This document shows positions 5,547 through 25,640 of a stretch of 64,000 nt of DNA, piece by piece. The stretch's first letter is position 1; every line of letters starts with the position of its first letter. The DNA is from Verrucomicrobiota bacterium (GTDB taxonomy: Bacteria > Verrucomicrobiota > Verrucomicrobiia > Chthoniobacterales > UBA10450), in assembly GCA_003218375.1 (NCBI GenBank), contig QHNH01000022.1:124001-188000 (forward strand), read 5' to 3'. Made by a program: the position numbers and the translations under genes. Under the pieces are notes generated by a model. That model saw only the letters and a list, made by a program, of their open reading frames with translations. It made no database searches and was not told the origin of the DNA.

Positions 5547-6197
5547 ATGGCGAATTTTTTTCCACGCTGGACGAACTGGCTCCCGCTCAAGATCGCCATC
5601 TGCGGCACGGTCGTTGTCTGCGGGCTCACTGGCGCCACCTGGTATTACATCACGCCGAAATACACGCGCGTTGGTTATCAACCGATCCAGCCGGTGCCGT
5701 TCCCGCACGATATCCACGTGGCGCAGCTCGGGATGGATTGCACCCAGGTGCAGAAAGATAATCCGAAGCTCGAGCCGGTGCGGGCAAGCTGGAAAACCGG
5801 GCAGCCGGTCGAGTGGGTGCAACTGCATCGGACGCCCGATTACGTCTACTACAATCACGCCGCGCACGTGAACCGCGGGATCAGTTGCGCGAGCTGCCAC
5901 GGCCAGGTGAATCGGATGGGGATCATGCACCATGACAAACCGCACAGCATGGCGTGGTGCCTCGAATGCCACCGGCATCCGGAGAACTTCCTCCGGCCGG
6001 AAACGCAAATCACAAACCTCGATTGGAAACCGGACTGGGAAAAACCGGCGGAGTTCGTGGCGAAATACGGCCAGCCGACAGAGGCGACCGATGATTGGGC
6101 GAAGAAGCAGAAGCTCACCCAAGAAGAGATCGGCCAGACTTTGAAAGAGCGTTGGAATATTCAGCCGCCGCTAAATTGCCAGGGGTGCCACCGATGA
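5547..6197 (+). CDS. actA: ACIII multihaem cytochrome c subunit ActA, three-haem form
   Basis: A 216-residue membrane-anchored c-type cytochrome (TM near residues 14-34) opening the alternative complex III operon. It matches ActA by VEWVQLHRTPDYVYYNHAAHV and three CxxCH motifs: CASCH (~113), CLECH (~138) and CQGCH at the C-terminus. ActA normally carries five haems. The two N-terminal sites are absent: where LGMDC would be followed by the first CxxCH, the sequence jumps to TQVQKDNPKLEPV, as if some 25 residues between haem sites 1 and 2 were deleted in frame. ActA should pass electrons from the ActB/ActC part of the complex toward cytochrome c or an oxidase. Confidence 0.88.
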   Translation: MANFFPRWTNWLPLKIAICGTVVVCGLTGATWYYITPKYTRVGYQPIQPVPFPHDIHVAQLGMDCTQVQKDNPKLEPVRASWKTGQPVEWVQLHRTPDYVYYNHAAHVNRGISCASCHGQVNRMGIMHHDKPHSMAWCLECHRHPENFLRPETQITNLDWKPDWEKPAEFVAKYGQPTEATDDWAKKQKLTQEEIGQTLKERWNIQPPLNCQGCHR

Positions 6198-6209
6198 GCA
6201 GGAACGTAA

Positions 6210-6293
6210 TTCGTTACATCGTTACATGGTTACATCGGAATGGGCGGGCGGGTCGCACCGATTCAGCGATTCAACGATTTAACGATGTAACGA
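6210..6293. repeat. short-period inverted repeat between actA and actB
   Basis: The left arm repeats GTTACAT units. The arms TCGTTACATCGTTA and TAACGATGTAACGA are exact complements of 14 bp. It fills almost the whole gap and could fold into a hairpin in the operon mRNA. Confidence 0.75.
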
Positions 6294-6303
6294 GGCGAAG
6301 CCC

Positions 6304-9300
6304 ATGAAGCGCGTCTTCGAGCATCCACCGGAAAAGCTGACGGGGAAGCGTTACTGGCGCAGCCTCGGCGAGCTGAGCGACACGCCGGAATTCCGGGGCT
6401 GGCTCGAGCGCGAATTTCCCGCGGGCGCGGCCCAGCTCGAAGGCGACGATTGGTCGCGCCGGGGCTTCCTGAAATTGATGGGCGCGTCGATGGCCCTGGC
6501 GGGATTTGGCCTAACGAGTTGTCGCCGGCCGGAAGCGCACCTGGTCCCGTTCACGAAAAGCGCCGAGTGGACGATCCCGGGCAAGGCCCTCTATTACGCG
6601 ACGGCGATGCCGCGCCGCACCGGCGGGCTGCCCCTGATCGCAGCGGCGGTCGATGGGCGCCCAATCAAACTGGAGGGCAACCCGCTCCATCCGGCGAGCG
6701 GCGGCGCGACGGACGCGTTCGCGCAGGCGTCGCTCCTCGATCTCTACGATCCGGCACGCTCGAAGCGTTTCGTCGAGAAAGGCGAGCGCGATGAGAAAGG
6801 GAAAAAGGTCGAAAACTTCGAGGCGCGAGACCGGGCGACGTTTGAAAAGTATCTGGCCCAACTCCGGACGAAGATCGCGGCGGACGGCGGCGCGGGCCTC
6901 GCGTTCCTCGTCGAAGAAGTCCACTCGCCGACGCGGGAGCGCTTGCGGGCCGAGCTTCTCAAAGCCTACCCGAAGATGCGGTGGTGCGTTTACGATCCGC
7001 TCCTGACCGAAGCGCAAAGTTTCGCGACACAGCTTGGTTTCGGCGATAACGTGCGCCTCGTCCCGCGCCTCGAGAGGGCCGATGTGGTGGTCGCGCTCGA
7101 CAGCGATTTTCTCGATTGCGGCGAGGGTGATGTCGCAGGTGTCCGCGCGTTTTCTTCACGGCGCCGGGTAGGCGAGGCGAAGGAGGCGATGAACCGGCTG
7201 TATGTGGTGGAGAACCGGTTCACCCTCACCGGCGCGATGGCCGATCATCGGATGCGTTGTCCCGCGAGCCAGATTCCGGCATTCACGCGCGCGCTGGCCG
7301 GGAAAATTGCAGTCGCAACGAAAGACCAGGGACTCGCTTCGACGATTGCGACGTTGACGGAGCCGGTGAACGCGATGCAGTTCGACGACACCTGGCTGAC
7401 CGAATGCGCGAACGATTTGATGACGAAGCCGGGCGCCAGCCTGGTCCTGGCCGGGCCACATCAGCCGGTGGTGGTGCAGCTCATGGTTTACGCGATCAAC
7501 TCGGCGCTGAAGAATATCGGCGCGACGTTGATCATCCGCGAGTTCCTTCGCGCGCCGAAAACCAACAGCATTATCCAATTGGCCGGCGAAATTAATTCCG
7601 GCCGAATCAAACAGCTTTTCATTTTCGGCGGCGACCCGGTTTACAACGCGCCGAAAGGGGTGACCCTCCATGTCGGCCGGCCTGACGCTGCCCAGGCTGC
7701 GGATCGCGAGGTAGCGCCGATCGATTGGGCCGATCTCCAGAAAACTGTGCCGGACGTGGTGCGGCTGGGTTGCTTCGAAGATGCCACGTCGGAATTAAGC
7801 AAATGGCATGTGCCGGCCGCGCATTATCTCGAAGCGTGGGGCGACGCGCTGACCAACGACGGCGCCTATCTCGCGATCCAGCCGATGATTCTCCCGCTCT
7901 TCGGCGGAATGTCGGAGCTCGAATTGATGAACGCCGTTCTCGGCGCTCCGAAAGTCGACGGACCGGAACTGGTGCAGGAAACTTTTCGCGCGAGCGCGCC
8001 GCCCGGCGATTTCCAAACGGCGTGGTCGCAACTGTTGCGGGACGGATTTGCGACGCACATCGCGTTGAAGGAAAAACCGCCCACGTTTAATTCGAACAAC
8101 GCCGGAGGTGTCGCGCACACACTTTGGGCAACGGTGCCGAACCCGACGCTCGACGCGCCCGAGATTGTCCTGACGCGCAGCTACGCGATGGATGACGGCC
8201 GTTATATCAACAACGGCTGGCTCCAGGAATTGCCGGACCCGATCACGAAGCTGACCTGGGACAACGCAGCGTTGATGAGCCCGGCGATGGCGAAACATCT
8301 CGGGGTGAACACCGGCGACTTGATCAATATCGCGGTGACCGAAACGACGAAGGACGTGCAGCAAAAAAATATCCGGCGCGAGCTGGTGATCGCGGCGCTA
8401 ATCTCGCCCGGACACGCGGACAACTCGATCTCGATTTCGCTTGGTTACGGCCGGAAAAAGACCGGGCCTGTCGGCGAAGAATCTGGCTTCAACGCCTACC
8501 TGCTGCGGACCACCTCGAATCCGCATTACATCGCGGTCGACAGTAAGATGATCGAGGCCATTACGGTCACGACCGCGGCGACGCCATCGGACCGACCCAC
8601 GCCGACGCCGGGATTCTTTAGCCGTTTGACGGGAGGCAACAAGCCGAAGCCGGTGGCGATGCACACGCTCGGCACGTATCCACTGGCGATCACGCAGGAT
8701 CATTGGAGCATCGAAGGGCGCGGGCTGGTGCGCGAAGCGACGATCGAGCATTACCGCGAAGACCCGGAGTTCGTGAAGAAAATCGCGGGCGACGAAGAAT
8801 TGCCGGCAAAGCTCCCGTCGATTTACAGCCATCCGCCGCTCAACGCCGAACAGCAATGGGGGATGACGGTCGACCTGAACGTCTGCACCGGTTGCAGCGC
8901 CTGCGTCATCGCCTGCCAGAGCGAAAATAATATTCCGATTGTCGGCAAACTCCAGGCGAGTCACGGGCGCTCGATGCACTGGCTCCGGCTCGATCGTTAT
9001 TACGCGAGCGAGAAACCGTTCAACCAGGACCGCGGCGAATACCCGGAGAACCCCGAGATCGTGCACCAGGCGATGATGTGCCAGCACTGCGAGAACGCGC
9101 CGTGCGAAACGGTCTGCCCGGTAAACGCCACGGTGCACAGCGAAGACGGCCTCAACGTCATGGCTTACAACCGCTGCATCGGCACGCGGTATTGCGCGAA
9201 CAACTGCCCGTTCAAGGTCCGCCGTTTTAATTATTTCGATTACAACCAGCGCCCGATCGGCAAAAAGAAAGTCGGCCCGCTCGAGGTCTATCAGGAATAC

Positions 9301-9795
9301 ATCGCGCCGTTCACCGAGAAAGGCGCGCCGGATACGACGAAGCTCCAGAAGAACCCGAACGTGACGGTGCGGATGCGCGGCGTGATGGAGAAGTGCACTT
9401 ATTGCGTCCAGCGGATCGAAGAAGCGAAGATCGCGGCGCACGTCAAGGCGGGCGCGTCCGGCAACACGCGGATTCCGCGCGATTCGTTCACCAGCGCGTG
9501 CGCCCAGGCCTGCCCGACGGAAGCGATCGTTTTCGGCGATACGAAGGATCCCGAGAGCCGGGTGTCGAAAATAAAAATGCAGGACCGCAATTACCGGTTG
9601 CTCGATTATTTGAATGTGAGCGCGCGCACGAGTTACCTGGCGCGGATCCGCAATCCGAACCCGAAAATGCCGGACGCGAACCGGATCGCGGTGGCGAGTC
9701 TGGGCAATGAACACCGGGAAAACGGCGCCAAGCACGAGCCCGATTCGATGCACCGCCACGATCACGCTGACATGAAACCGGAAGAGAAACCGTGA
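6304..9795 (+). CDS. actB: ACIII iron-sulfur subunit ActB (fused B1/B2)
   Basis: A 1163-residue fusion typical of ActB. The N-terminus carries a Tat-type motif ([10 protein letters not shown], 51-60) followed by a cysteine at 73. Residues ~80-770 resemble the molybdopterin oxidoreductase fold, which in ACIII is known to lack the cofactor. Residues ~850-1100 form a ferredoxin-like domain with four cysteine clusters: [11 protein letters not shown] (~860), [19 protein letters not shown] and CTYC/CAQACP (~1065). It faces the periplasm and should relay electrons from quinol oxidation to the haem subunits. It is full length and in normal operon order between actA and actC. Confidence 0.93.
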
Positions 9796-9800
9796 GGAAG

Positions 9801-9877
9801 GATTTCAGATTGCAGATTTCAGATTGCAGATTGGCGGCAGCGACGCGGGAACAATCTGCAATCTGCAATCTGAAATC
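9801..9877. repeat. short-period inverted repeat between actB and actC
   Basis: Units of CAGATT(G/T) repeat in the left arm (9801-9833). Their complement, AATCTG(C/A) units ending in GAAATC, fills 9853-9877. The arms pair over more than 18 bp. It overlaps any ribosome-binding region only marginally, ending 12 bp before the actC start. Confidence 0.75.
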
Positions 9878-9889
9878 GGCAATGTAACC

Positions 9890-11350
9890 ATGGACGGCGC
9901 AACCACGGCACCAGATGTGATCGAAGGCGAAGCCTCGGCTTCCGTGGAGAGGCCGTTGCAGCGCGTGCCGCTCGTGCTGCACCGGCGGAACTTCAGTTGG
10001 ATCACCGAGCGAATTGCCGGCGCGGTCGAGGGCCCGGGCCCGCGTTGGTGGTGGGTGACGTTTGCGATCACCTCGATGGTCGCGATGTTCGGACTCTTCT
10101 GTCTCGGCTACCAGATTTCCACCGGCGTCGGCACCTGGGGCTTGAATCATCCGGTCGGCTGGGCCTGGGACATCACCAACTTCGTGTTCTGGATCGGTAT
10201 CGGACACGCGGGCACGCTCATCTCCGCTATCTTGTTTTTGCTCCGGCAGAAGTGGCGCACGTCGATTAATCGCTCCGCGGAAGCGATGACGCTGTTCGCG
10301 GTGATTTGCGCCGCGATCTTTCCCGGCGTTCACGTCGGCCGGGTTTGGATGGCGTGGTTCCTCGCGCCGTTGCCGAACAACTACGGGATTTGGCCGAACT
10401 TTCGCAGTCCGCTGCTCTGGGACGTGTTCGCGGTCTCGACCTACTTCTCGGTCTCGGTCCTGTTTTGGTACACCGGCTTGATTCCAGATCTCGCGACGTT
10501 GCGCGATCGCGCCACGACGAAGATCAAGAAGTTGCTCTACGGAATTTTCGCGGTCGGCTGGCGCGGCTCAAACCGGAACTGGCGCCATTACGAGATGGCG
10601 TATCTGCTTCTCGCCGGTCTTTCCACGCCGCTGGTGCTCTCCGTCCATAGCGTCGTGTCGTTCGACTTCGCTACGTCGATCATCCCCACCTGGCACACCA
10701 CGATCTTCCCGCCTTACTTCGTCGCGGGCGCGATCTTCGGCGGATTCGCCATGGTGCTGACGCTCCTGATCCCGGCGCGCGCGATTTACAAACTGCAGGA
10801 CATCATCACCCCGCAGCACATCGACAAAATGGCGAAGGTGATCCTGCTTACCGGCTCGATCGTGAGTTACGCCTACGCGATGGAATTCTTCGTCGCCTGG
10901 TACAGCGGCAACCAGTACGAGAAGTACGCATTCTTCAATCGCATCTTCGGTCCCTACTGGTGGTACTGGTGGGTCGGCATGCTTTTCTGCAACGCCCTTT
11001 CGCCGCAGTTTTTCTGGTTCAAGCGGTTCCGGCAAAACATCTACGTCGTTTATTTCGTGTGCATGTGCGTCAACGCCGGGATGTGGTTCGAGCGTTTCAT
11101 TATCATCGTCGGCGGCTTGCACCGCGATTTCCTGCCGTCGTCCTGGGGAATGTTTTACCCGACCTGGGTCGATATCTGGACGTTCATCGGCACGTTGGGC
11201 ATCTTCCTTTCGCTTTTCCTCATGTTCATTCGCTACCTGCCGATGATCGCGATGTCGGAAGTGAAGATTGTGCTGCCGGAAGCGAATCCACATCATGCCT
11301 CGCCTGAGGAACATCATGTCGTCGCCGCCGGCGGAAAGGAGCGCACGTGA
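9890..11350 (+). CDS. actC: ACIII membrane quinol-oxidising subunit ActC (NrfD-like)
   Basis: A 486-residue integral membrane protein of the NrfD/PsrC family with about ten TM helices. The start at 9890 ([13 protein letters not shown]) is chosen because the frame upstream lies in the inverted repeat. The segment [21 protein letters not shown] and the helices beginning [12 protein letters not shown] match ActC. In ACIII, ActC binds menaquinol near the periplasmic side and takes part in energy conservation. The neighbours actB and actD are in standard order. Confidence 0.92.
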
Positions 11351-11360
11351 AAACGCTCTT

Positions 11361-11450
11361 CTTCTGTAGCCGCTTCGCTGTGCGAAGCGCGGGTATCAGC
11401 GTGGATTCTATGTCGCTCTCACGCGGCCCACAGGGCCGCGGCTACAGAAG
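11361..11450. repeat. palindromic repeat family A, copy A1
   Basis: The outer arms CTTCTGTAGCCGC and GCGGCTACAGAAG are complementary. Inside each arm is a separate perfect hairpin: an 8-bp stem CGCTTCGC/GCGAAGCG with loop TGT on the left and CGCGGCCC/GGGCCGCG with loop ACA on the right. It lies between actC and actD. Family A recurs at 18437, 25643 and 48974. Confidence 0.8.
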
Positions 11451-11477
11451 AGGCGACGACAGAAAGGAGAGGACCAA

Positions 11478-12032
11478 GTGAGAACGCCATCCGGAAACAA
11501 GGTTTACGGGATGGGTGCGGAATTTCCGAGCGCCTCGGCGCTTTACGAAGCGGCGAAACGGGTGCGCGATGCCGGATTCAAGAAGTGGGATGTGCATTCG
11601 CCGTTCCCGATTCACGGGATGGACGCCGCGATGGGTCTCGGCAAATCGTGGCTCAGCGCTGCGGTCCTCGGGGGCGGCATCACCGGATTGCTCACCGCCG
11701 TCACCCTGGAGTTCGGCCCGTCGTGGTTCATTTATCCGCTCGTCGTCCACGGCAAACCGGTGGATTGGCGGACGGTGCCGGCCTTTTTCCCGATCATGTT
11801 CGAGCTCACCGTCCTCTTCGCCGCTTTCACCGCGTTCTTCGCGATGCTCATCATGAACGGCCTTCCGCGCTGGTATCATCCCGTCTTCAACTGGCGACGA
11901 TTCAGCCGCGCGACCAACGACGGATTTTTCCTCATCATCGAAGCCCGCGATCCGCGCTTCACCGAGCTGGAGGCCCGCGAGCTTTTGGAACAAAGCGGCG
12001 GCGAACACGTCACCGTCATCCACGAAGACTGA
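11478..12032 (+). CDS. actD: ACIII subunit ActD (DUF3341)
   Basis: A 184-residue protein with a GTG start placed after a good AAAGGAGAGG site. Two central TM helices (~54-75 and ~100-122) are flanked by soluble ends. FPSASALYEAAKRVRDAGFKKWDVHSPFPIHGMD at the N-terminus is characteristic of DUF3341/ActD, shown here only as the family signature. ActD is a structural membrane subunit of ACIII without cofactors. It follows actC and precedes actE as in other act clusters. Confidence 0.92.
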   Translation: MRTPSGNKVYGMGAEFPSASALYEAAKRVRDAGFKKWDVHSPFPIHGMDAAMGLGKSWLSAAVLGGGITGLLTAVTLEFGPSWFIYPLVVHGKPVDWRTVPAFFPIMFELTVLFAAFTAFFAMLIMNGLPRWYHPVFNWRRFSRATNDGFFLIIEARDPRFTELEARELLEQSGGEHVTVIHED

Positions 12033-12037
12033 ACAAA

Positions 12038-12172
12038 ATGACGAATTTCCGAATGACGAATGACGAATTAATGACGAATGACCGAGTCCGAATGATCCGG
12101 ACGCCGGGTGCACTCCCTGGTCATTCGTTATTGGTCATTCCTTCGTCATTCGACATTCGTCATTCGGCATTT
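12038..12172. repeat. short-period inverted array between actD and actE
   Basis: The left arm is built of ATGACGAAT-type units; the right arm is their complement, TCATTCGTTATT and related units. The arms flank a 40-bp centre. It starts about six bases after the actD stop and ends just before actE. Confidence 0.75.
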
Positions 12173-12181
12173 CTGTAATTT

Positions 12182-12934
12182 ATGCTCCGCGGATTTTTCC
12201 TCATCTTCTTGCTGATCGGCGTCGCGATCGTCGCCGTGTTCGGTTTCCGCGGACAGACGAGCACCGGTTCGCCGATCGAAGTTTTTCCGGACATGGTCCG
12301 GCAGATGAAAGTACGGGCCCAGGCGCCGCTGGCATTTTTCGCGGACGGTCGCGGCTCGCGTCCGCCGGTGGCCGGCACGGTGCCGATCGGGTACGAAATG
12401 CCGAAGGCCAACAGCGAGGCTTCGCCCGGCGCCGCTCCCGTTCCCTCCGAGATGAACGTGCAACCGCATCTCGGTTTCAGCAGCGGCAATGATTATTTCA
12501 ATACCGGAAAGATGGGAACGAACTGGGGGACTGGTTTCCCATTGGCTGTCACGGGCGACCTGATGGAGCGGGGCAAACAGCGGTTCAATATCAACTGCGC
12601 CATTTGCCACGGACCCACCGCGGCCGGCAACGGAATGACGAAGCAGTACGGCCTCGCCACCGTCGTCACTTTGCAGGACGAACGGATCCGGACCATGGCG
12701 GACGGCGAAATTTTCAACACGATCACGAACGGGAAAAACACAATGCTGGCTTACGGACCGAACGTGAGCGTGACGGACCGGTGGGCGATTATCGCGTATC
12801 TGCGTGCGTTGCAACGCAGCCAGAACGCGACCGCAGCCGACGTGCCGCCGGAACATCGCGCCGAAATGGATAAGCCCGCCGAAACGAAACCCGAAGCGAA
12901 ACCCGAGGCAAAACCGGAGCCGCCCAAGAAATGA
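12182..12934 (+). CDS. actE: ACIII monohaem cytochrome c subunit ActE
   Basis: A 250-residue protein with an N-terminal membrane anchor (FFLIFLLIGVAIVAVFGF) and one class I cytochrome c domain. The single haem site is CAICH (~140), and the methionine in NTMLAYG is a likely sixth ligand. The C-terminus is a lysine/proline/glutamate-rich tail with KPEAKPEAKPE repeats. ActE is the monohaem subunit of ACIII and may dock soluble cytochrome c or the oxidase. Its stop overlaps the actF start by 4 bp. Confidence 0.9.
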   Translation: MLRGFFLIFLLIGVAIVAVFGFRGQTSTGSPIEVFPDMVRQMKVRAQAPLAFFADGRGSRPPVAGTVPIGYEMPKANSEASPGAAPVPSEMNVQPHLGFSSGNDYFNTGKMGTNWGTGFPLAVTGDLMERGKQRFNINCAICHGPTAAGNGMTKQYGLATVVTLQDERIRTMADGEIFNTITNGKNTMLAYGPNVSVTDRWAIIAYLRALQRSQNATAADVPPEHRAEMDKPAETKPEAKPEAKPEPPKK

Positions 12935-14133
12935 GCGAGCGATCTGACATCGTGCCAACGCCGGAAGGCGAATTCGTCGAGCCGACACGGTTCGCGCCGT
13001 TGTCGTTTTTGTTGGCGCTGCTCGGCCTGGGCGGTCTCGGCTTGAGCGTGGTGGGCGCGTTCGTCTCGCCGCATCAGTTCAGTTTCTCCTGGCTCTTCGC
13101 GTTCGCCTTTTATTTCACGATGCTGGCCGGCTGTTTCTTCTGGATCATCGTCCACCATGTCGTCGATGCGGAATGGTCGGTGGTCGTCCGGCGCCAGCTC
13201 GAGAATCTCTCGCTGCTGCTCGCCGTGATGGTGGTGTTTTTCATCCCGATCGTCATCTATCGCCATCATCTTTATGAATGGATGAACATCCCGGTGGGCC
13301 ACGATCCGGTTCTCGACAGCAAACGCGGCTACCTGAACTGGCACTTCTTCCTGGTGCGCTCCATTTTCTATTTCTTCTTTTTCATCAGCGCGACGTTGCT
13401 CTTCCGCCGCTTCTCGATCCGGCAGGATCGCGACGGAAATCCGGCCTATACGATCAACATGCGGCGGCTCGCCTTCGTGGCGCTGCCGATCTTCGCCCTG
13501 TCGCTCACCTTTGGCGCTTACGACTGGCTCCTCGGAATCGATTACCACTGGTTCTCGACCATGTGGGGCGTTTACATTTTCGCCGGCGCCGCGGGCAGCT
13601 CGATGTCGCTCCTGGTTCTGGTGATCACGGCCCTGCGTAAGGCCGGTTACCTGAAGGAAACGGTCACCGTCGAGCATTACCACATCATGGGGAAATGGAT
13701 GCTCGCCTTCTGCGTTTTCTGGGCCTACATCGGTTTCTCCCAATACATGCTCATCTGGTATGCGAACATGCCGGAAGAGACGGAATATTTTATCCGGCGA
13801 AACACGGAGTCGTGGAATGCGCTCAGCCTCTTTTTGGTGATCGGGCGGTTCTTCGTTCCATTCGCGATCCTGCTTCTGCAAGGGTTGAAGAGAAAACCGC
13901 ACCGGCTCTGCCTGATCGCGGGTTGGATCGTGTTCATGCAGATGGTCGATCTCTACATCGTGATCCTGCCGGCGCTGCATGGGAAGGGCGTGCTCGTCAG
14001 CGTCTGGGACTTCATGCCGCTGCTTGGGATGGGCGCGACGCTCGCCTTTGTCTTCCTCTGGATCGTGCGCAGGAGCTCCACCTTTCCGAACCGCGATCCG
14101 CGCCTGCTCGAATCGCTCCACCTTGTTAACTAG
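12931..14133 (+). CDS. actF: ACIII membrane subunit ActF
   Basis: A 400-residue integral membrane protein with about ten helices, a second NrfD-related subunit of ACIII that pairs with ActC. FAFYFTMLAGCFFWIIVHHV and FGAYDWLLGIDYHWFSTMWG are typical of ActF. Translation is probably coupled to actE through the ATGA overlap. ActF is thought to have a structural or proton-translocating role. No frameshift or missing segment is seen. Confidence 0.92.
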   Translation: MSERSDIVPTPEGEFVEPTRFAPLSFLLALLGLGGLGLSVVGAFVSPHQFSFSWLFAFAFYFTMLAGCFFWIIVHHVVDAEWSVVVRRQLENLSLLLAVMVVFFIPIVIYRHHLYEWMNIPVGHDPVLDSKRGYLNWHFFLVRSIFYFFFFISATLLFRRFSIRQDRDGNPAYTINMRRLAFVALPIFALSLTFGAYDWLLGIDYHWFSTMWGVYIFAGAAGSSMSLLVLVITALRKAGYLKETVTVEHYHIMGKWMLAFCVFWAYIGFSQYMLIWYANMPEETEYFIRRNTESWNALSLFLVIGRFFVPFAILLLQGLKRKPHRLCLIAGWIVFMQMVDLYIVILPALHGKGVLVSVWDFMPLLGMGATLAFVFLWIVRRSSTFPNRDPRLLESLHLVN

Positions 14134-14135
14134 CA

Positions 14136-14795
14136 ATGACGCAACCGGAACCACTCCAAGATTATCAGCCGCGCTCGATGTTCTCGACGTGGGTGGGGGT
14201 TGTTCTGCTCTTCGCCTTCTTCGGCATGCTCGCGTTTGTGGCGGTGAAGACGTCGCCGCGCGGAAACACCTACGAAAAGAAACGCGCCAAAGTTCGCGCG
14301 GAAAAATTGGAAGCCGCGCAGAAAGAAAACCTGACCGCGCTGACCAGCTATGGCTGGGTCGACAAGAACAAAGGCATCGCGCGAATCCCGATTAACGACG
14401 CGATGAAATTGACCCTCGCAGCGCTGGCCGAAAAGAAACCGACCGCGGCCGGTCCGATCGTCGCCGCGTCGCCGAGCGCGGCTCCTCAAGCTTCGCCGGC
14501 TTCAAGCGCCGCCGCATCAGCGGCCGCGAGCGCAAGCGCATCGCCTTCTGCCAGCGCGAGCGCGAGTACGACACCAAAACCAACTTCAGTGACAGGTCCC
14601 GATTCCGAAGCTCGCAATCAACCGGCCGCCGCAATCAAACCGCCACCAGCGCCTCCCGGTACCCAGCCTGGTCCTAACTCGAGCCCCGTTGCTTCCGCGC
14701 CGCCTGCTCCGGCAAAGGCGCAAAAGAGTCCTTCACCATCCGCTTCACCTTCCGCCGCAGGAACACCGCTGCCCGTCCGCGGTAAGACGCCATGA
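14136..14795 (+). CDS. single-TM protein with Ala/Ser/Pro-rich tail, ACIII-associated
   Basis: A 219-residue protein starting 2 bp after actF. One TM helix (~20-42) is followed by a basic helical stretch (KKRAKVRAEKLEAAQKENL), then the motif YGWVDKNKGIARIPINDAM, which I have seen in small proteins near cytochrome oxidase genes. Residues ~110-219 are low-complexity Ala/Ser/Pro, probably disordered and periplasmic. It sits where some act clusters carry a small accessory subunit. A role in assembly or tethering of the respiratory complex is inference; no cofactor site is visible. Confidence 0.7.
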   Translation: MTQPEPLQDYQPRSMFSTWVGVVLLFAFFGMLAFVAVKTSPRGNTYEKKRAKVRAEKLEAAQKENLTALTSYGWVDKNKGIARIPINDAMKLTLAALAEKKPTAAGPIVAASPSAAPQASPASSAAASAAASASASPSASASASTTPKPTSVTGPDSEARNQPAAAIKPPPAPPGTQPGPNSSPVASAPPAPAKAQKSPSPSASPSAAGTPLPVRGKTP

Positions 14796-14922: not shown

Positions 14923-16428
14923 ATGAATCCATCTGAAGTTCCATTGAGGCCACCATCAAACGTCGAGGTTCCAACGCCCGACAGCCAGGTGACCACCCAC
15001 GAGGTCGAGCAGGTCGAGCGCGCATTGATCGACGCCTCGACGCGGCTGCCGGTCCTGTTCTTCTACGGGTCCGCGATTCTCTGGCTGTTGCTCGGCACGC
15101 TGCTCGCCGGAATTACCTCGTGGAAACTGCACGCGCCCGATCTGCTGGCGAATTGGAGCTGGCTCACGTGGGGTCGCATCCGTCCCGCCCACATGAATGT
15201 GATGGTTTACGGCTGGGCCTCGATGGCCGGCATCGGCACCGCGATCTGGCTCATGGCGCGTTTGTGCCGGACCACGCTGCGCCATCCGTTACTCCTCATC
15301 GCCGGCGGAGCTTTCTGGAATCTTGGCGTGCTGCTCGGCGTCGGTGGAATTCTGGCCGGCGACAGCACCGGCTTTGAATGGCTCGAGTTCCCGCCCTATG
15401 CCACCACCGTGCTCTTCATTGCGTATTCGCTCGTCGTGTCGTGGGCGCTGCTCATGTTCCGTTTTCGCCGCGGAGACAGCATCTACATCACACAATGGTA
15501 TCTGCTCGGCGCGTTTCTCTGGTTCCCCTGGGTCTATGGCGCCACCCAGGTGATGCTCTTCATCGCGCCGGTCCAGGGCGTGATGCAATCCGCCGTCACC
15601 TGGTGGTTCGCGAACAATCTTCTCTTCCTTTGGTTCGGCGCGATTGGGCTCGGCACGGCGTATTACATGATCCCGAAAGTAATTGGTCGCCCCGTCTACA
15701 GTTATCACCTGGCGGCGATCGGCTTCTGGACTTACGCGTTCTTTGCGAGCTGGACGGGAATGCAACGCCTCGTCGACGGCCCGTTCCCGGCCTGGATGAT
15801 CACCGCCAGCATCGCGGCGACGATCCTCACCATTATTCCGGTGGCGACCGTCGGCCTGAATCATCACATGACGATGCAAGGTTACTTCGGTCTGCTCCGC
15901 TACAGTCCGACGTTGCGCTTCACGGTCTTCGGGGCCATTTCCTACACCGTCTTCAGTTTGTTCGGCGTTTTGATCTCACTGAGGTCTGTCGAGCGTTACC
16001 TGGACTTCACCCAAGCGAGCATCGCCTACTCGCATATGGGGCTCTATGCGTTTTTCACGATGGTAATGTTCGGCTCGATGTACTACATCGTGCCGCGGTT
16101 GGTCGGGCGCGAGTGGCGCTACGCTGCTCTGATCAAACTCCACTTCTGGTCATCGACTTATGGCGTTGGTTTGATGGTATTGATGCTCATTGCGGCCGGG
16201 ATCGCTCAGGGCAGTGCGCTCAATGATCCCTCGCTTTCTTTCATCGAGGGTCTGGAATACGTGCCCATGTATCTGCGCGGTCGCAGTCTTTCTGGTCTTC
16301 TTCTCACGATCGCGCATTTGATCTTCGCGTTTCATTTCGGCCTGATGCTTTTCGGACTCGGTCGCACCGCGAGCATGCCGACGTTTCTAAATCCGCAGGA
16401 AGAGGAGGCAGTGAAGGAACACATATGA
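14923..16428 (+). CDS. CcoN-like membrane protein lacking the CuB centre
   Basis: A 501-residue, ~12-TM homologue of cbb3 oxidase subunit I. The low-spin haem b ligands are kept: H90 in RPAHMNVMVYGWA and H371 in IAYSHMG. The catalytic centre is gone. Canonical WWYGHNA reads WWFANN (227-232), canonical GPHH reads GMQR (279-282), the active-site Tyr helix position is not Tyr, and the high-spin haem ligand His is Y369. A new HH pair (314-315) appears in a later helix. By these ligands it cannot reduce oxygen like a haem-copper oxidase. It overlaps the CcoO-like gene by 4 bp and follows ACIII, so a haem b electron-transfer role is inferred. Confidence 0.85.
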   Translation: MNPSEVPLRPPSNVEVPTPDSQVTTHEVEQVERALIDASTRLPVLFFYGSAILWLLLGTLLAGITSWKLHAPDLLANWSWLTWGRIRPAHMNVMVYGWASMAGIGTAIWLMARLCRTTLRHPLLLIAGGAFWNLGVLLGVGGILAGDSTGFEWLEFPPYATTVLFIAYSLVVSWALLMFRFRRGDSIYITQWYLLGAFLWFPWVYGATQVMLFIAPVQGVMQSAVTWWFANNLLFLWFGAIGLGTAYYMIPKVIGRPVYSYHLAAIGFWTYAFFASWTGMQRLVDGPFPAWMITASIAATILTIIPVATVGLNHHMTMQGYFGLLRYSPTLRFTVFGAISYTVFSLFGVLISLRSVERYLDFTQASIAYSHMGLYAFFTMVMFGSMYYIVPRLVGREWRYAALIKLHFWSSTYGVGLMVLMLIAAGIAQGSALNDPSLSFIEGLEYVPMYLRGRSLSGLLLTIAHLIFAFHFGLMLFGLGRTASMPTFLNPQEEEAVKEHI

Positions 16429-17678
16429 AAGGGTTAACGGCACTCTTTCTCGGAATCTTCGGCACGTTCGCTTTCTCGTGGGCGGGGCTGACGCTGATCC
16501 CGAATTTCCAGATCGGGCATCTCGATCCCGCGGTAAATCAGGACGACGAGAATGACATTTATCCCGTGCCGAAATCCGGGATGGCGGAACGCGGCCGGAA
16601 AATTTATGCGGCCAACGGCTGCGTCTATTGCCACAGCCAGCAAGTCCGCGCCGATTACGCCGCCTCCGACATCGACCGGAAATGGGGCACGCGCCGGAGC
16701 GCGCCGCGCGATTACATTTTCGAGCGTCCGGCCATGCTCGGCAAAATGAGAGTGGGTCCCGATCTTTCGAACATCGGCAAGCGCGCGCCTTCGGAGGACC
16801 AGAGTCCAACGCCTTCGGCATCGCCGGGTGCATCTCCGGCGGCAAATGCTCCTCAGCCGAACGCCGCGACCTCTCCCGCAAGTTCGCCCGCTGCTAACGC
16901 ATCCGCATCGCCCGCCGCTTCGCCAAACAAACCAGTCGCCGCCAACTCTCCCGCGCCCTCGAAATCGCCAGCTGCATCTCCAGCGGCAAACGCGCCGCAG
17001 CCAAATGCCGCGACCTCTCCCGCAAGTTCGCCCGCTGCCAACGCGCCCACATCGCCCGCCGCTTCACCAACCAAACCGGTCGCCGCCAACTCTCCGGCGC
17101 CCTCGAAATCGCCAACTGCATCTCCCGCGGCAAACGCGCCGCAGCCAAATGCAGCGACCTCTCCCGCAAGTTCGTCCGCTGCCAACGCGCCCACATCGCC
17201 CGCCGCTTCACCGACTAAACCAGTCGCCGCCAACTCTCCCGCGCCGGCGCCGACGAACGCCACGACAGCAGCCGCGCCTTCGCCCTCAGCGAGCCCGGCC
17301 GCAACCCCCGCGACGACAGCGGACACGACCACCAACTCCAGCGGCGTTCCGCCGCAATACTCCGCGGCCTGGCACCATCTTCATCTCTACAGTCCGCGTA
17401 GCGTCCTGGCCGGTTCCACTTCGAACATGCCGGCTTACAAATTCCTTTACGAGAAGCGGCGCGTTTCTGGCGAGCGCTCAGCCGAGGCCCTGAAGTTGAC
17501 CGGCGCCGAGGCACTGCCCGACGAATGGGAAATCGTGCCGAGTTACGACGCGAAATGCCTCGTGGCTTACTTGATGTCGCTCGACCAATCTCACGAATTG
17601 AAGGAAGCGAAGCTGACCACAGCTCCGGCTTCTTCGCCTGCGTCTTCACCGGCTCCGGCCAAGGAGGAAAAGAAATGA
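16425..17678 (+). CDS. CcoO-like monohaem cytochrome c with repeat insertion
   Basis: A 417-residue CcoO homologue. An N-terminal membrane anchor is followed by CVYCHSQQVR (haem c site, ~66-70), WGTRRSAPRDYIFERP and GPDLSNIGKR, all classic CcoO. The domain is then interrupted by ~180 residues of Ala/Ser/Pro/Asn repeats (three 48-residue units) before the C-terminal half resumes at WHHLHLYSP and MPAYKFLYEKR, the likely haem Met ligand region. The C-terminus is again Ala/Pro/Ser-rich. The stop overlaps the next gene by 4 bp. It should carry electrons to or from the CcoN-like haem b. Confidence 0.85.
   Translation: MKGLTALFLGIFGTFAFSWAGLTLIPNFQIGHLDPAVNQDDENDIYPVPKSGMAERGRKIYAANGCVYCHSQQVRADYAASDIDRKWGTRRSAPRDYIFERPAMLGKMRVGPDLSNIGKRAPSEDQSPTPSASPGASPAANAPQPNAATSPASSPAANASASPAASPNKPVAANSPAPSKSPAASPAANAPQPNAATSPASSPAANAPTSPAASPTKPVAANSPAPSKSPTASPAANAPQPNAATSPASSSAANAPTSPAASPTKPVAANSPAPAPTNATTAAAPSPSASPAATPATTADTTTNSSGVPPQYSAAWHHLHLYSPRSVLAGSTSNMPAYKFLYEKRRVSGERSAEALKLTGAEALPDEWEIVPSYDAKCLVAYLMSLDQSHELKEAKLTTAPASSPASSPAPAKEEKK
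16831..17247 (+). repeat. three in-frame 144-bp tandem repeats in the CcoO-like gene
   Basis: Units begin at 16831, 16975 and 17119, exactly 144 bp apart; the third runs to about 17247. Each encodes 48 residues such as SPAANAPQPNAATSPAS. They differ by a few substitutions only, so the array is recent or kept uniform by recombination. The length is a multiple of three, so copy changes would keep the frame. Confidence 0.9.
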
Positions 17679-18436
17679 ACGAGAACGCGCCCGAGCGTCG
17701 CGTCCGCCAGGGAATGGATTATGGCGAAGACTCTGACGTGCATCAGGTGCATGCCGCGATCCAGCGGGAGAAGCGCGAGCCGCGGGTGGGTCTTGAACCG
17801 CTCTCGATCTGGCTGATTGCGGTTTACGGCCTCGCGATCTTTTTCGGCGGCGCTTACCTCGGGCGTTTCTCCGGCAACTTTAGCGGCGACAGTCTCGATC
17901 CCGCTCTCATCCCGCAGCCAAAAACGCACGGCCCGAGTGGTCCGGGTGGCGAGCAAACGACCGAACTCTCGCAGGCCGATCGCGGCAAAAAGATTTTCTC
18001 GGCGAACTGCGCCGTCTGTCATCAACCGAATGGACTCGGCGCGGCGGGCCAGGGTTATCCGCCGCTGGCCGGTTCGGAATACGTGAATGGCGGGACCCGG
18101 CGGCTGGGAATGATCGTCCTCAAAGGCTTGCAAGGTCCGCTCACGGTGAAAGGCCAGTCGTTCGGCGCGGCCGTCATGCAGCCGTGGGACAAGACGCTGA
18201 GCGACGCGAAGATCGCCGACGTTCTCACCTACATTCGGCAGGAGTGGGGAAACAAGGGCGGCCCGGTGGCCACCGCGCAGATCGCGGGGTTGCGCAAGGA
18301 ACTGGCCAGCCATCCTGATTCCTTCGTAGAGGCGGATTTGAAAGCTGTTCCCGAAGATGCCGAGCTTCCCGGCGGCGAACCCGCTGGAGCCAAGCCCGCG
18401 GAAGCAAAGAGCCCAGCACCCGCGCCACCGAAATAA
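17675..18436 (+). CDS. CcoP-like monohaem cytochrome c, membrane-anchored
   Basis: A 253-residue protein. The start at 17675 overlaps the previous stop as ATGA and is preceded by AAGGAGG; a longer upstream frame is antisense-like and rejected. A TM helix (~47-68) precedes one class I cytochrome domain with CAVCHQPNGLG (~111-115) and the Met ligand candidate in AVMQPWD. True CcoP usually has two haems; only one is seen. The tail is Ala/Pro-rich. With the two preceding genes it completes a cbb3-like N-O-P set. Confidence 0.82.
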   Translation: MNENAPERRVRQGMDYGEDSDVHQVHAAIQREKREPRVGLEPLSIWLIAVYGLAIFFGGAYLGRFSGNFSGDSLDPALIPQPKTHGPSGPGGEQTTELSQADRGKKIFSANCAVCHQPNGLGAAGQGYPPLAGSEYVNGGTRRLGMIVLKGLQGPLTVKGQSFGAAVMQPWDKTLSDAKIADVLTYIRQEWGNKGGPVATAQIAGLRKELASHPDSFVEADLKAVPEDAELPGGEPAGAKPAEAKSPAPAPPK

Positions 18437-21099: not shown

Positions 21100-22992
21100 A
21101 TGGACGCATCCTCTGGTCTCGCTACCCATCCGCCCGCCGAACATCCCGCCCAGCACGAAGATCACGGACACGACCATCACGAGCTGCCCTTCTGGCGGAA
21201 ATACATCATCTCGACCGACCACAAGGTGATCGGCATCCAGTACGGAATTACCGGGCTCATTTTCCTTTTCTTCGGGTTCTCCCTGATGATGCTGATGCGC
21301 TGGCAGCTCGCGTATCCCGGCCAGGAAATTCCGCTCATCGGCAACCTGCTCGGCCGCATGTTCGGTCCCGGCGCCGTGGAAAACGGCGTGATGAAGGCCG
21401 AGTTCTATAACTCGTTAGGCGCGATGCACGGCACGATCATGATCTTCCTCGGCATCGTCCCGATCGCGTTCGCCGCCTTCGGTAATTTCGTGGTGCCGCT
21501 CCAGATCGGCGCGCCGGACATGACCTTCCCGAAGATCAACATGGCGAGTTACCAGGCGTTTTTCTTTGGCGGCATTGTGATGCTGACCAGCTTTTTCGTT
21601 CCTGGCGGCGCGGCCAAAGGCGGTTGGACTTCTTACACCCCGCTCGCTGTCCTTGCGGACAAAGGACAGAACTACGATCCGTTTTGGAATGGGCAGACGC
21701 TCTGGCTCGTCGGGTTCATCCTGCTGATTACGTCCTCGCTTCTGGGCGCGGTCAATTTCATCGCGACGATCATTCAGCTGCGCGCTAAAGGCATGACCTG
21801 GATGCGGCTGCCCTTCTTCGTCTGGGCGCAATTCGTCACGGCGTTCCTGCTCCTGCTCGCCTTTCCGCCGCTTGAATCAGCAGTGGTTATGCAGCTCATG
21901 GATCGCATCGCGGGCACCAGCTTCTTCATGCCCACTGGCCTCGTCGTAAATGGGGCGCCCTTGCACGTCAGCGGCGGTGGCAGTCCGCTGCTCTGGCAGC
22001 ATTTGTTCTGGTTTCTGGGGCATCCGGAAGTTTACGTGCTCATCCTGCCCGGCATGGGCATCGTCGCGGAGATTATCGCGAACAATACCCGCAAGCCGCT
22101 GTGGGGTTACAAATCGCTCGTCTTCGCCGCGCTTGTCCTCGGGTTTCTTTCCTTCGTCGTCTGGGCCCACCACATGTGGCTCACCGGCATGGGCTCGGTC
22201 GTGAGCGCCTTTTTCCAGACGACCACGATGATCATTTCCATTCCCTCGGTCATCATCCTGAGCGCGTTTTTCATTTCGCTCTGGGGCGGCTCGATCCGGT
22301 TCAACGTCCCGATGCTTTTCGCGACGGCGTTCCTTCCCATGTTCGGAATCGGCGGACTCACCGGCATCCCGCTCGCGTTTAATTCCGCCGATCTTTACCT
22401 GCACGACACCTATTACGTCATCGCCCATTTCCATTACATCGTCGCGCCCGGCACGATCTTCGCGGTGTTCGCCGGAATTTATTTCTGGTTCCCAAAGGCG
22501 ACGGGCCGCCGGATGAACGAGTTCTGGGGGAAGGTGCATTTCTGGCCGTCGCTCATTTGTATGAACATTATTTTCCTGCCGATGTTCCTGCAGGGAATGC
22601 TCGGCATGCACCGGCGCTGGTACGATGGCGGCCAGGGCTGGACCCTGGCGGGCGAAAAAGTCTGGGGCCTGAGCGGATTCCAATGGAACACGCCGATCTC
22701 GATCGCGGCCTGGGTGATGGGTCTCGCCCAAATTCCGTTCATCATCAATTTCTTCTGGAGCATCAAGCGCGGACAGAAAGTGAACGACAACCCATGGGAG
22801 GCCACGACCCTCGAATGGACCGCGCCGTCGCCGCCCCCGCACGGAAATTTCGAGGTCACGCCGACCGTCTACCGCGGCCCGTATGAATACAGCCTGCCCG
22901 GACGCGAAGCGGATTTCACCATGCAAAGCGAACCGATGACTGAAAGCGACCGCAAAGCCTACGAAACCGCCGCGGCCGCGGGTGTCCACTAA
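21100..22992 (+). CDS. coxA: cytochrome c oxidase subunit I (aa3/caa3 type)
   Basis: A 630-residue haem-copper oxidase subunit I with all catalytic residues: H308/Y312 and E310 of GHPEVY (CuB, cross-linked Tyr and proton-channel Glu of the A1 type), H357-H358 (WAHHMW), and H443/H445 of AHFHYIV for haem a3 and haem a. The N-terminus has a His-rich stretch (HEDHGHDHHELP) that may bind metal. It is the true terminal oxidase of the locus, in contrast to the CcoN-like protein. It starts the coxA-C-D cluster, followed after small genes by coxB. Confidence 0.95.
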   Translation: MDASSGLATHPPAEHPAQHEDHGHDHHELPFWRKYIISTDHKVIGIQYGITGLIFLFFGFSLMMLMRWQLAYPGQEIPLIGNLLGRMFGPGAVENGVMKAEFYNSLGAMHGTIMIFLGIVPIAFAAFGNFVVPLQIGAPDMTFPKINMASYQAFFFGGIVMLTSFFVPGGAAKGGWTSYTPLAVLADKGQNYDPFWNGQTLWLVGFILLITSSLLGAVNFIATIIQLRAKGMTWMRLPFFVWAQFVTAFLLLLAFPPLESAVVMQLMDRIAGTSFFMPTGLVVNGAPLHVSGGGSPLLWQHLFWFLGHPEVYVLILPGMGIVAEIIANNTRKPLWGYKSLVFAALVLGFLSFVVWAHHMWLTGMGSVVSAFFQTTTMIISIPSVIILSAFFISLWGGSIRFNVPMLFATAFLPMFGIGGLTGIPLAFNSADLYLHDTYYVIAHFHYIVAPGTIFAVFAGIYFWFPKATGRRMNEFWGKVHFWPSLICMNIIFLPMFLQGMLGMHRRWYDGGQGWTLAGEKVWGLSGFQWNTPISIAAWVMGLAQIPFIINFFWSIKRGQKVNDNPWEATTLEWTAPSPPPHGNFEVTPTVYRGPYEYSLPGREADFTMQSEPMTESDRKAYETAAAAGVH

Positions 22993-24461: not shown

Positions 24462-24718
24462 AAGCTCGGATGATCATCGCGGTCGGTTTGTTTCTCGGCA
24501 CGCCGATCGGTCAGGCCCTGGCGTGTTCGCAATGTTTTGGAGCTCCCGGGTCCAAAAGCACAGAGCACATGGCCACTGCCATCTGGGTGCTGATGGGCGT
24601 CGTTATGTCCGTCATGGGCGGCGTGGGCGCTTTCAGTTTCCATCTTTGGAAACACGCCAACACGCCCCTCGAACCGCATCAGGAACTGACCGACGAGGAT
24701 TTGAAGCCGTATGAATAG
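24458..24718 (+). CDS. small exported/membrane protein with CSQC motif
   Basis: An 86-residue protein beginning at the ATGA overlap. A signal-like helix ends in ALACSQCFGAPGSK, giving a CxxC pair just after a probable cleavage or lipidation site. A second TM helix (~43-63) follows. The C-terminus overlaps the coxB start by 8 bp. The CxxC could bind copper or act in thiol exchange during CuA assembly; that is inference from its position. No family name is assigned. Confidence 0.65.
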   Translation: MKARMIIAVGLFLGTPIGQALACSQCFGAPGSKSTEHMATAIWVLMGVVMSVMGGVGAFSFHLWKHANTPLEPHQELTDEDLKPYE

Positions 24719-25640
24719 CCTCGCGTTCCTCAACGAGCTGATCGGGCTGCCGCCGAATGCTTCCGAGCATGGCTACCAGATCGATCACATCATCGAGTTC
24801 AGTCACTGGTTCATGGGCGGGCTCTTCGTCGGCTGGTCGGCATTTTTTATTTACGTCCTCCTGCGTTTCCGTCGCAGCAAACATCCGGTCGCTGACCACG
24901 AAGGCGTGAAGAGCGGGATTTCCACCCATCTCGAATTCGCGGTCGTCTTGATCGAAGCCGTGCTCCTCATCGGTTTCGCGATTCCACTCTGGGCGAAGCG
25001 GGTGAATTCATTTCCCGAAGACAAAGACGCGATCGTTGTCCACGTCGTCGGGCAGCAATTCAATTGGAACTTTCACATGCCGGGTCCGGATGGCGTCTTC
25101 GGACGACGCGATGTTTCGCTGGTGACGAACTCGAACCCGATGGGCATTGATTATTCCGATCCCGCGTCGAAAGACGATATCACTGCTGGCGGAGAACTTC
25201 ATGTGCTGAAGGATCGTCCTGTCATTATCGAGCTGTCCTCGAAAGACGTGATTCACAATTTCGCGCTGCCGCATATGCGCATCGCGCAGGACGCCATCCC
25301 GGGTCAGATCATCCCGATGTGGTTCAAGCCGATCAAGACCGGCACGTTTGAAATTGTCTGCGGCCAGCTTTGCGGCCTGGGTCATTACAGTATGAAAGGC
25401 TCGGTTGTGGTCGATGAACCGGCTGAGTACCAGACATGGTTGAAGGAGCGGGCCGAGCTTTCAAAGACTGAGACCGTTCCAGCGCCGACCGAGCGCCCGC
25501 CGGGCGAACCGCCAGTCGGACCGACACCCGGTACGGTCCCGCCTCCCGGTGGTCCGAAGACCGCGAACCCGAGCGGCGAGCCGGATGCGAAACCAGGCGA
25601 GGCCCCGAAAGCGCCAAGTCCCGCGGCAACACCGCATTGA
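24711..25640 (+). CDS. coxB: cytochrome c oxidase subunit II (CuA)
   Basis: A 309-residue protein with two TM helices and a periplasmic cupredoxin domain. CuA ligands are intact: H182 (VIHNF), C217, C221, H225 and M228 (VCGQLCGLGHYSM). The C-terminal ~65 residues are Pro/Gly-rich and disordered; no fused cytochrome c is present, so this is an aa3 rather than caa3 form. Standard order would put coxB before coxA; here it comes last in the oxidase block, just before haem A synthesis genes. Confidence 0.93.
   Translation: MNSLAFLNELIGLPPNASEHGYQIDHIIEFSHWFMGGLFVGWSAFFIYVLLRFRRSKHPVADHEGVKSGISTHLEFAVVLIEAVLLIGFAIPLWAKRVNSFPEDKDAIVVHVVGQQFNWNFHMPGPDGVFGRRDVSLVTNSNPMGIDYSDPASKDDITAGGELHVLKDRPVIIELSSKDVIHNFALPHMRIAQDAIPGQIIPMWFKPIKTGTFEIVCGQLCGLGHYSMKGSVVVDEPAEYQTWLKERAELSKTETVPAPTERPPGEPPVGPTPGTVPPPGGPKTANPSGEPDAKPGEAPKAPSPAATPH

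Follow-up and report, generated by a model that had tools for sequence, protein, structure and literature searches.

An ACIII-linked CcoN-like protein without the ligands of a binuclear centre, and its relatives in the class Verrucomicrobiae

In the window, the whole stretch of 64,000 nucleotides that was analysed, the genes of an ACIII are followed by three genes, here called N, O and P, which resemble those of a cbb3 oxidase. N belongs by descent to the C family of the haem-copper oxidase superfamily, and it is near-certain from its residues that it binds neither CuB nor haem b3 and reduces neither O2 nor NO. It is considered somewhat more probable than not that N-O-P derives from an ACIII-linked oxidase of the C family and has ceased to be catalytic, with N as a scaffold and with the c-type haems in O and P relaying ACIII electrons, most likely to an aa3 oxidase.

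The locus and the protein N

The window is C3:124001-188000 of its source genome (3.96 Mb, 97.8% complete), which groups beside palsa-soil Spartobacteria/Chthoniobacterales MAGs. The six ACIII genes (5547-14133), actABCDEF, lie upstream of N-O-P in the same orientation, which makes the locus an ACIII gene cluster; they are followed by a single-TM ORF, by N-O-P (14923-18436) and, about 2.7 kb further on, by an aa3 operon with the order coxA (21100), coxC, coxD, coxB, ctaA and ctaB. The features are as follows.

5547-6197, + strand: ActA, ACIII multihaem c subunit; 3 CxxCH in the window, 5 in relatives
6304-9795, + strand: ActB, ACIII fused molybdopterin-type and FeS subunit
9824-11350, + strand: ActC, ACIII NrfD-type membrane subunit (PF03916, 2.1e-23)
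11478-12032, + strand: ActD (by position and homologues in clusters)
12182-12934, + strand: ActE, ACIII monohaem cytochrome c subunit; one CxxCH
12931-14133, + strand: ActF (by position and homologues in clusters)
14136-14795, + strand: 'ActX', single-TM accessory ORF, 219 aa; position between actF and N conserved in most clusters
14923-16428, + strand: N, CcoN-like haem-copper subunit I, 501 aa, with N231, Q281, R282, Y369 and A275 at the former active site, near-certainly catalytically dead; low-spin bis-His H90/H371 kept
16425-17678, + strand: O, CcoO-like membrane-anchored monohaem cytochrome c, 417 aa; CVYCH at residue 66, FixO 1.3e-20, Ser/Pro/Ala-rich insert
17675-18436, + strand: P, CcoP-like membrane-anchored cytochrome c, 253 aa; single haem motif CAVCH, Cytochrom_C 8.8e-14
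21100-22992, + strand: CoxA/CtaD, aa3-type subunit I, ligands intact (GHPEVY, AHHM, AHFH); the sole other haem-copper subunit I in the genome
23001-23876, + strand: CoxC, subunit III
24711-25640, + strand: CoxB, subunit II, with a CuA motif and without a haem c domain

The ORF coordinates bear out an earlier, sequence-only reading of this DNA in that the N/O and O/P genes overlap by 4 bp each (ATGA). The same reading placed N directly after actF, which has to be corrected, as ActX and a 127-bp gap lie in between. ActX has no match in Pfam or NCBIfam; it carries the motif YGWVDKNKGIARIPI and a Ser/Ala/Pro tail.

N is a COX1 protein (Pfam, 2e-55) whose nearest solved relatives by sequence are CcoN chains of cbb3 throughout, and it does not reach the ccoN equivalog of NCBIfam (154 bits against a cut-off of 583). 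Its predicted fold is complete (pTM 0.85), with five cbb3 CcoN entries as best matches (Z 41-44; NOR, Z 40), and this structural match rules out an unrelated new fold. A dip in AF2 confidence at residues 260-300 was discarded as a sign of the lost CuB site, since a model of a catalytic relative, made with the same rows, dips there too.

In the Pseudomonas CcoN (3mk7 numbering), we take the CuB ligands to be His207, His257 and His258, the haem b3 ligand to be His347 and the low-spin haem b ligands to be His60 and His349. Alignment to 3mk7 places N231 (WWFANN) at His207, Q281 and R282 (GMQR) at His257 and His258, and Y369 at His347, and both low-spin histidines are kept as H90 and H371. This is what the sequence-only reading had described, although it understated the loss: the cross-linked active-site Tyr (YIWAGPHH) is replaced by A275 and the canonical active-site Glu (FEGP) by F347 as well. 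Compared with the CcoN of cbb3 (3mk7, 9g6b, 8smr), N shares the fold over about 446 residues, the low-spin bis-His pair and CcoO- and CcoP-like partners, but it lacks the CuB and b3 histidines, the Tyr and the Glu that are expected of a cbb3 oxygen reductase. The partners differ too: O has one CxxCH, as CcoO does, and P has one where CcoP has two.

The replacements are common to the close relatives of the window. Among the 52 rows of its clade, which include the window itself twice, N231, R282 and Y369 are found in 100% and Q281 in 92%; G285 has become a fixed Asp, so that R282 and D285 are fixed together, and nearly all rows retain H90 and H371. Chance or assembly error was rejected as the source of the ligand loss, N231, R282 and Y369 being shared by all 52 rows. 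Displaced histidines in the same helices, which would count against the loss, were looked for in the alignment of this clade and none was found; the sole newly conserved histidine near the lost site, H262, precedes the lost CuB pair by about 19 residues, so that no rescue of the CuB site by a shifted histidine is visible. With no catalytic ligands and no substitute histidine, the description of N as non-catalytic is strongly supported. It is very improbable that N now does different chemistry with another metal, or with other ligands, where the active site used to be (N231, Q281, R282, Y369): the invariance of the replacements in the window's clade and the joint fixation of R282 and D285 would fit it, but no His, Cys or Met set stands in place of the lost ligands, and quite different residues occupy the site in other dead lineages.

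Three states of an ACIII-linked family

The family of N is ACIII-linked (actABCDEF-N-O-P) and spread across the class Verrucomicrobiae. Homologues of N at E 1e-40 are present in 182 of 213 genomes of the order, mostly behind actA-F, a few of them being ordinary CcoNO. Catalytic and dead members share the gene order actA-F, N, O, P, and N is found in three states. In the first (47 sequences, e.g. L034, L035, L059-L081) all ligands and the Tyr are present, and these proteins are presumably real oxidases, although they have Gln or a small residue at the position of the canonical Glu. In the second, that of the window's clade, the binuclear ligands are gone and the low-spin pair is kept, and in the third (e.g. 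L040-L048, L162-L182) the low-spin ligands are damaged or gone as well. The losses seen in the window thus have counterparts in other ACIII clusters, class-wide and recurrent, alongside catalytic members.

Catalytic-type N proteins (L034, L035, L151) have all metal ligands, but Gln, Ile, Ala, Leu or Thr at the Glu position; lacking the canonical Glu, they may therefore form a separate subgroup of the C family. The 'unknown group' in the HCO tree of Muntyan 2015 may contain this family. In two loci, L036:7536-9050 (WWFARN) and L160:293-1816 (GMSH), a single CuB ligand has changed in an otherwise intact catalytic-type N, and these could be first steps of inactivation.

The haem c sites of O and P outlast those of N. 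The CxxCH motif of O is kept in 92 of 92 non-catalytic clusters scored and that of P in 76 of 76; these motifs persist even where N has no b-haem or CuB ligand left. Scores for the axial Met of O and P are less reliable, given loose patterns and contig ends, and some MAG contigs are truncated. Several relatives of the window within its family (L026, L027, L029, L129, L136), on the other hand, lack low-spin haem b ligands, as do most other non-catalytic lineages. As the ligands were lost there with the operon and the c-haem sites kept, haem b is dispensable for the function of the module. The proposal of a membrane cytochrome b/c module consequently agrees with the window and with most members of its clade, but not with those relatives. 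Judging from its retained histidines, the N of the window's clade probably continues to bind one low-spin haem b; since this haem is dispensable in relatives, it is probably a structural or buffering cofactor and not an essential wire. The opposite view, in which it is an obligatory redox centre and the module relays electrons through b and c haems to some other partner in the membrane, e.g. a quinone site, is rather improbable: H90 and H371 are indeed kept in nearly all of the clade and N evolves there as slowly as catalytic CcoN, but one or both low-spin histidines are lost in the same-family relatives L026, L027, L028, L029, L030, L032, L129 and L136, whose N is otherwise near-identical, and most other dead lineages have lost them too, with operon and c-haems remaining.

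In the window's clade N is under purifying selection. Its dN/dS is 0.05-0.14 between the window and its relatives and 0.06-0.33 in degenerate pairs, and its frames are intact in all but a few genomes, which rules out a pseudogene. At an ActC identity of 75-80%, the median identity of N is 76% in the window's clade, 69% in catalytic members and 31% in degenerate members, so that conservation of N relative to ActC in the window's clade equals that of catalytic members. Taken with the replacements that are invariant in the clade, the dN/dS of 0.05-0.14 indicates that the window's N is a settled, constrained protein and not a relic. Deeply degenerate N proteins are 31-40% identical where ActC is 75-85% identical, and the faster-drifting dead lineages still keep Gly/Pro/Trp scaffold positions and frames. 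A decaying N, whose loss is neutral in a locus on its way out, is disfavoured and has very little probability: the fast divergence of degenerate members and the single-ligand mutants L036 and L160 speak for it, but dN/dS stays well under 1 even in degenerate pairs, the frames are nearly all intact, and the window's clade has fixed replacements and full conservation.

The number of losses depends on the tree. By parsimony, changes between the catalytic and non-catalytic states number 4 on the N tree, which groups most dead members, possibly by long-branch attraction, and at least 14 on the ActB+ActC+ActF tree, where exchange of N genes between operons could inflate the count. For these reasons the true number is put between the two and 14 losses are not claimed, although several independent losses of catalysis in the family can safely be read from the sequences. 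The clearest cases are L199 (N of L082) beside the catalytic L196 and L045 beside the catalytic L201, with ACIII-tree support of 100 each. These pairs (ActC 91% and N 59% for L199/L196; ActC 94% and N 48% for L045/L201) indicate that N changes abruptly after catalysis is lost.

Routes from ACIII to oxygen

The aa3 oxidase, with its ligands intact, is the sole other haem-copper oxidase of the window's genome, and no bd oxidase was found in that genome. Electrons bound for O2 must therefore reach aa3. Two bridges from ACIII to such an oxidase have been proposed: in Flavobacterium johnsoniae, with its ACIII-aa3 supercomplex, a sixth haem domain of ActA, and in Rhodothermus marinus, with its ACIII-caa3, the haem c of caa3 (PMC8552683, PMC5928083). 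Coupling of ACIII to an aa3-type oxidase through a bridging haem c would be common to those systems and the present one, but the sixth ActA haem and the CoxB-fused haem c are both absent in the window, and no dead oxidase subunit occurs in those systems. Across the family, nearly all clusters encode an ActA with five haems and no sixth, and CoxB lacks haem c in 29 of 29, so that neither known bridge is present. In the ActA of the window itself, a 25-residue in-frame stretch (GMDC|TQVQ, near 5738-5742) is missing, which is present in 6 of 6 same-genus relatives checked; its absence takes away two of the five haem motifs and reflects either a genuine deletion or an error in the MAG assembly.

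The model proposed here is that N persists as a 12-helix membrane scaffold, which would place O and P, each monohaem and membrane-anchored, beside ACIII. Electrons would pass from the haems of ActA and ActE to those carried by O and P, and from there to the CuA of aa3, the O and P haems standing in for the sixth ActA haem of Flavobacterium or the fused caa3 haem c of Rhodothermus. The ACIII-to-aa3 link that had been suggested earlier is plausible on synteny and elimination: it gains from aa3 being the sole intact oxidase, from the lack of bd and from the missing CoxB and ActA bridge haems. It does not gain from gene neighbourhood in the family, as no clean association of a neighbouring aa3 operon with loss of catalysis was seen; many dead clusters have no aa3 genes within 10 kb, and several catalytic ones have them nearby. 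The partner of N-O-P is thus not fixed by synteny.

Nor is the N-O-P relay the sole conceivable route to aa3, since the genome also has genes for a bc-type complex and for a few further cytochromes c. ActE alone may feed aa3. The genome carries a cytochrome b of bc/b6f type, to which a cytochrome c is fused, as well as a small cytochrome c of the soluble type (G000:C1:84190-84693 and C1:80197-80457); with the bc/b6f-type complex, two quinol-oxidising routes would feed one oxidase. It is conceivable, though unlikely, that N-O-P is a structural or assembly set of ACIII whose O and P haems c buffer, act as a sink or serve other periplasmic acceptors, aa3 not being the partner. The linkage of N-O-P is strict to actA-F and only loose to aa3, other cytochromes c are encoded, and dead-end wires and alternative ActE acceptors have been proposed in published work on ACIII (PMC8552683), but the ACIII electrons bound for O2 have no other intact oxidase in this genome, and the 100% retention of two c-haem sites suggests throughput. 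N probably carries electrons or holds respiratory machinery together.

For the class as a whole, a broader scenario is advanced tentatively, as one that may or may not hold: the ACIII-operon oxidase would have been disarmed repeatedly and kept as a cofactor-poor scaffold that carries a cytochrome c bridge of two haems. This would be a third way of connecting ACIII to an oxygen reductase, with living intermediates running from catalytic through single-ligand and haem-b-only to ligand-less forms. The relay by N-O-P would then be a testable third design for electron transfer from ACIII to an oxidase, and the family offers natural intermediates between a respiratory catalytic subunit and a structural one.

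Published relatives, methanotrophs and the length of O

In Opitutaceae and verrucomicrobial methanotrophs, a C-type oxidase linked to ACIII has been described (Refojo 2010, as cited in PMC8498564). It shares with the window the order actA-F, N, O, P and the protein family, some members keeping all ligands, but it was published as functional, and ligand loss is not mentioned in the published text consulted. No ligand-less ACIII-linked CcoN was found described in the open-licence literature searched.

Five genomes of one family in the class carry pmoA, which marks them as verrucomicrobial methanotrophs of the Methylacidiphilum type. In the three examined (L181, L182, L186), no more than one of the six ligands is left in the ACIII-linked N, and aa3 genes lie alongside. 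The Methylacidiphilum locus has been called a cbb3 oxidase in genome annotations and in papers (PMC6688271, PMC8498564, PMC10205796), in one of them as being in line with the observed high O2 affinity (PMC6688271), and aa3 and 'cbb3' genes have been reported beside ACIII (PMC11102522). The residues of N suggest that this reading of a functional, high-affinity cbb3 in Methylacidiphilum is probably wrong; as N in the genomes examined retains one ligand at most, the oxidase count, the inference on O2 affinity and the metabolic models need revision. More generally, scoring 'ccoN' by homology overcounts high-affinity oxidases in Verrucomicrobiota.

The O gene of the window contains three near-identical tandem copies of 144 bp (16820-17245), which encode the Ser/Pro/Ala insert; this insert separates the haem motif from the Met region. 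Throughout the window's family O is long, often 300-500 aa, but in most others it has about 210-260 aa.
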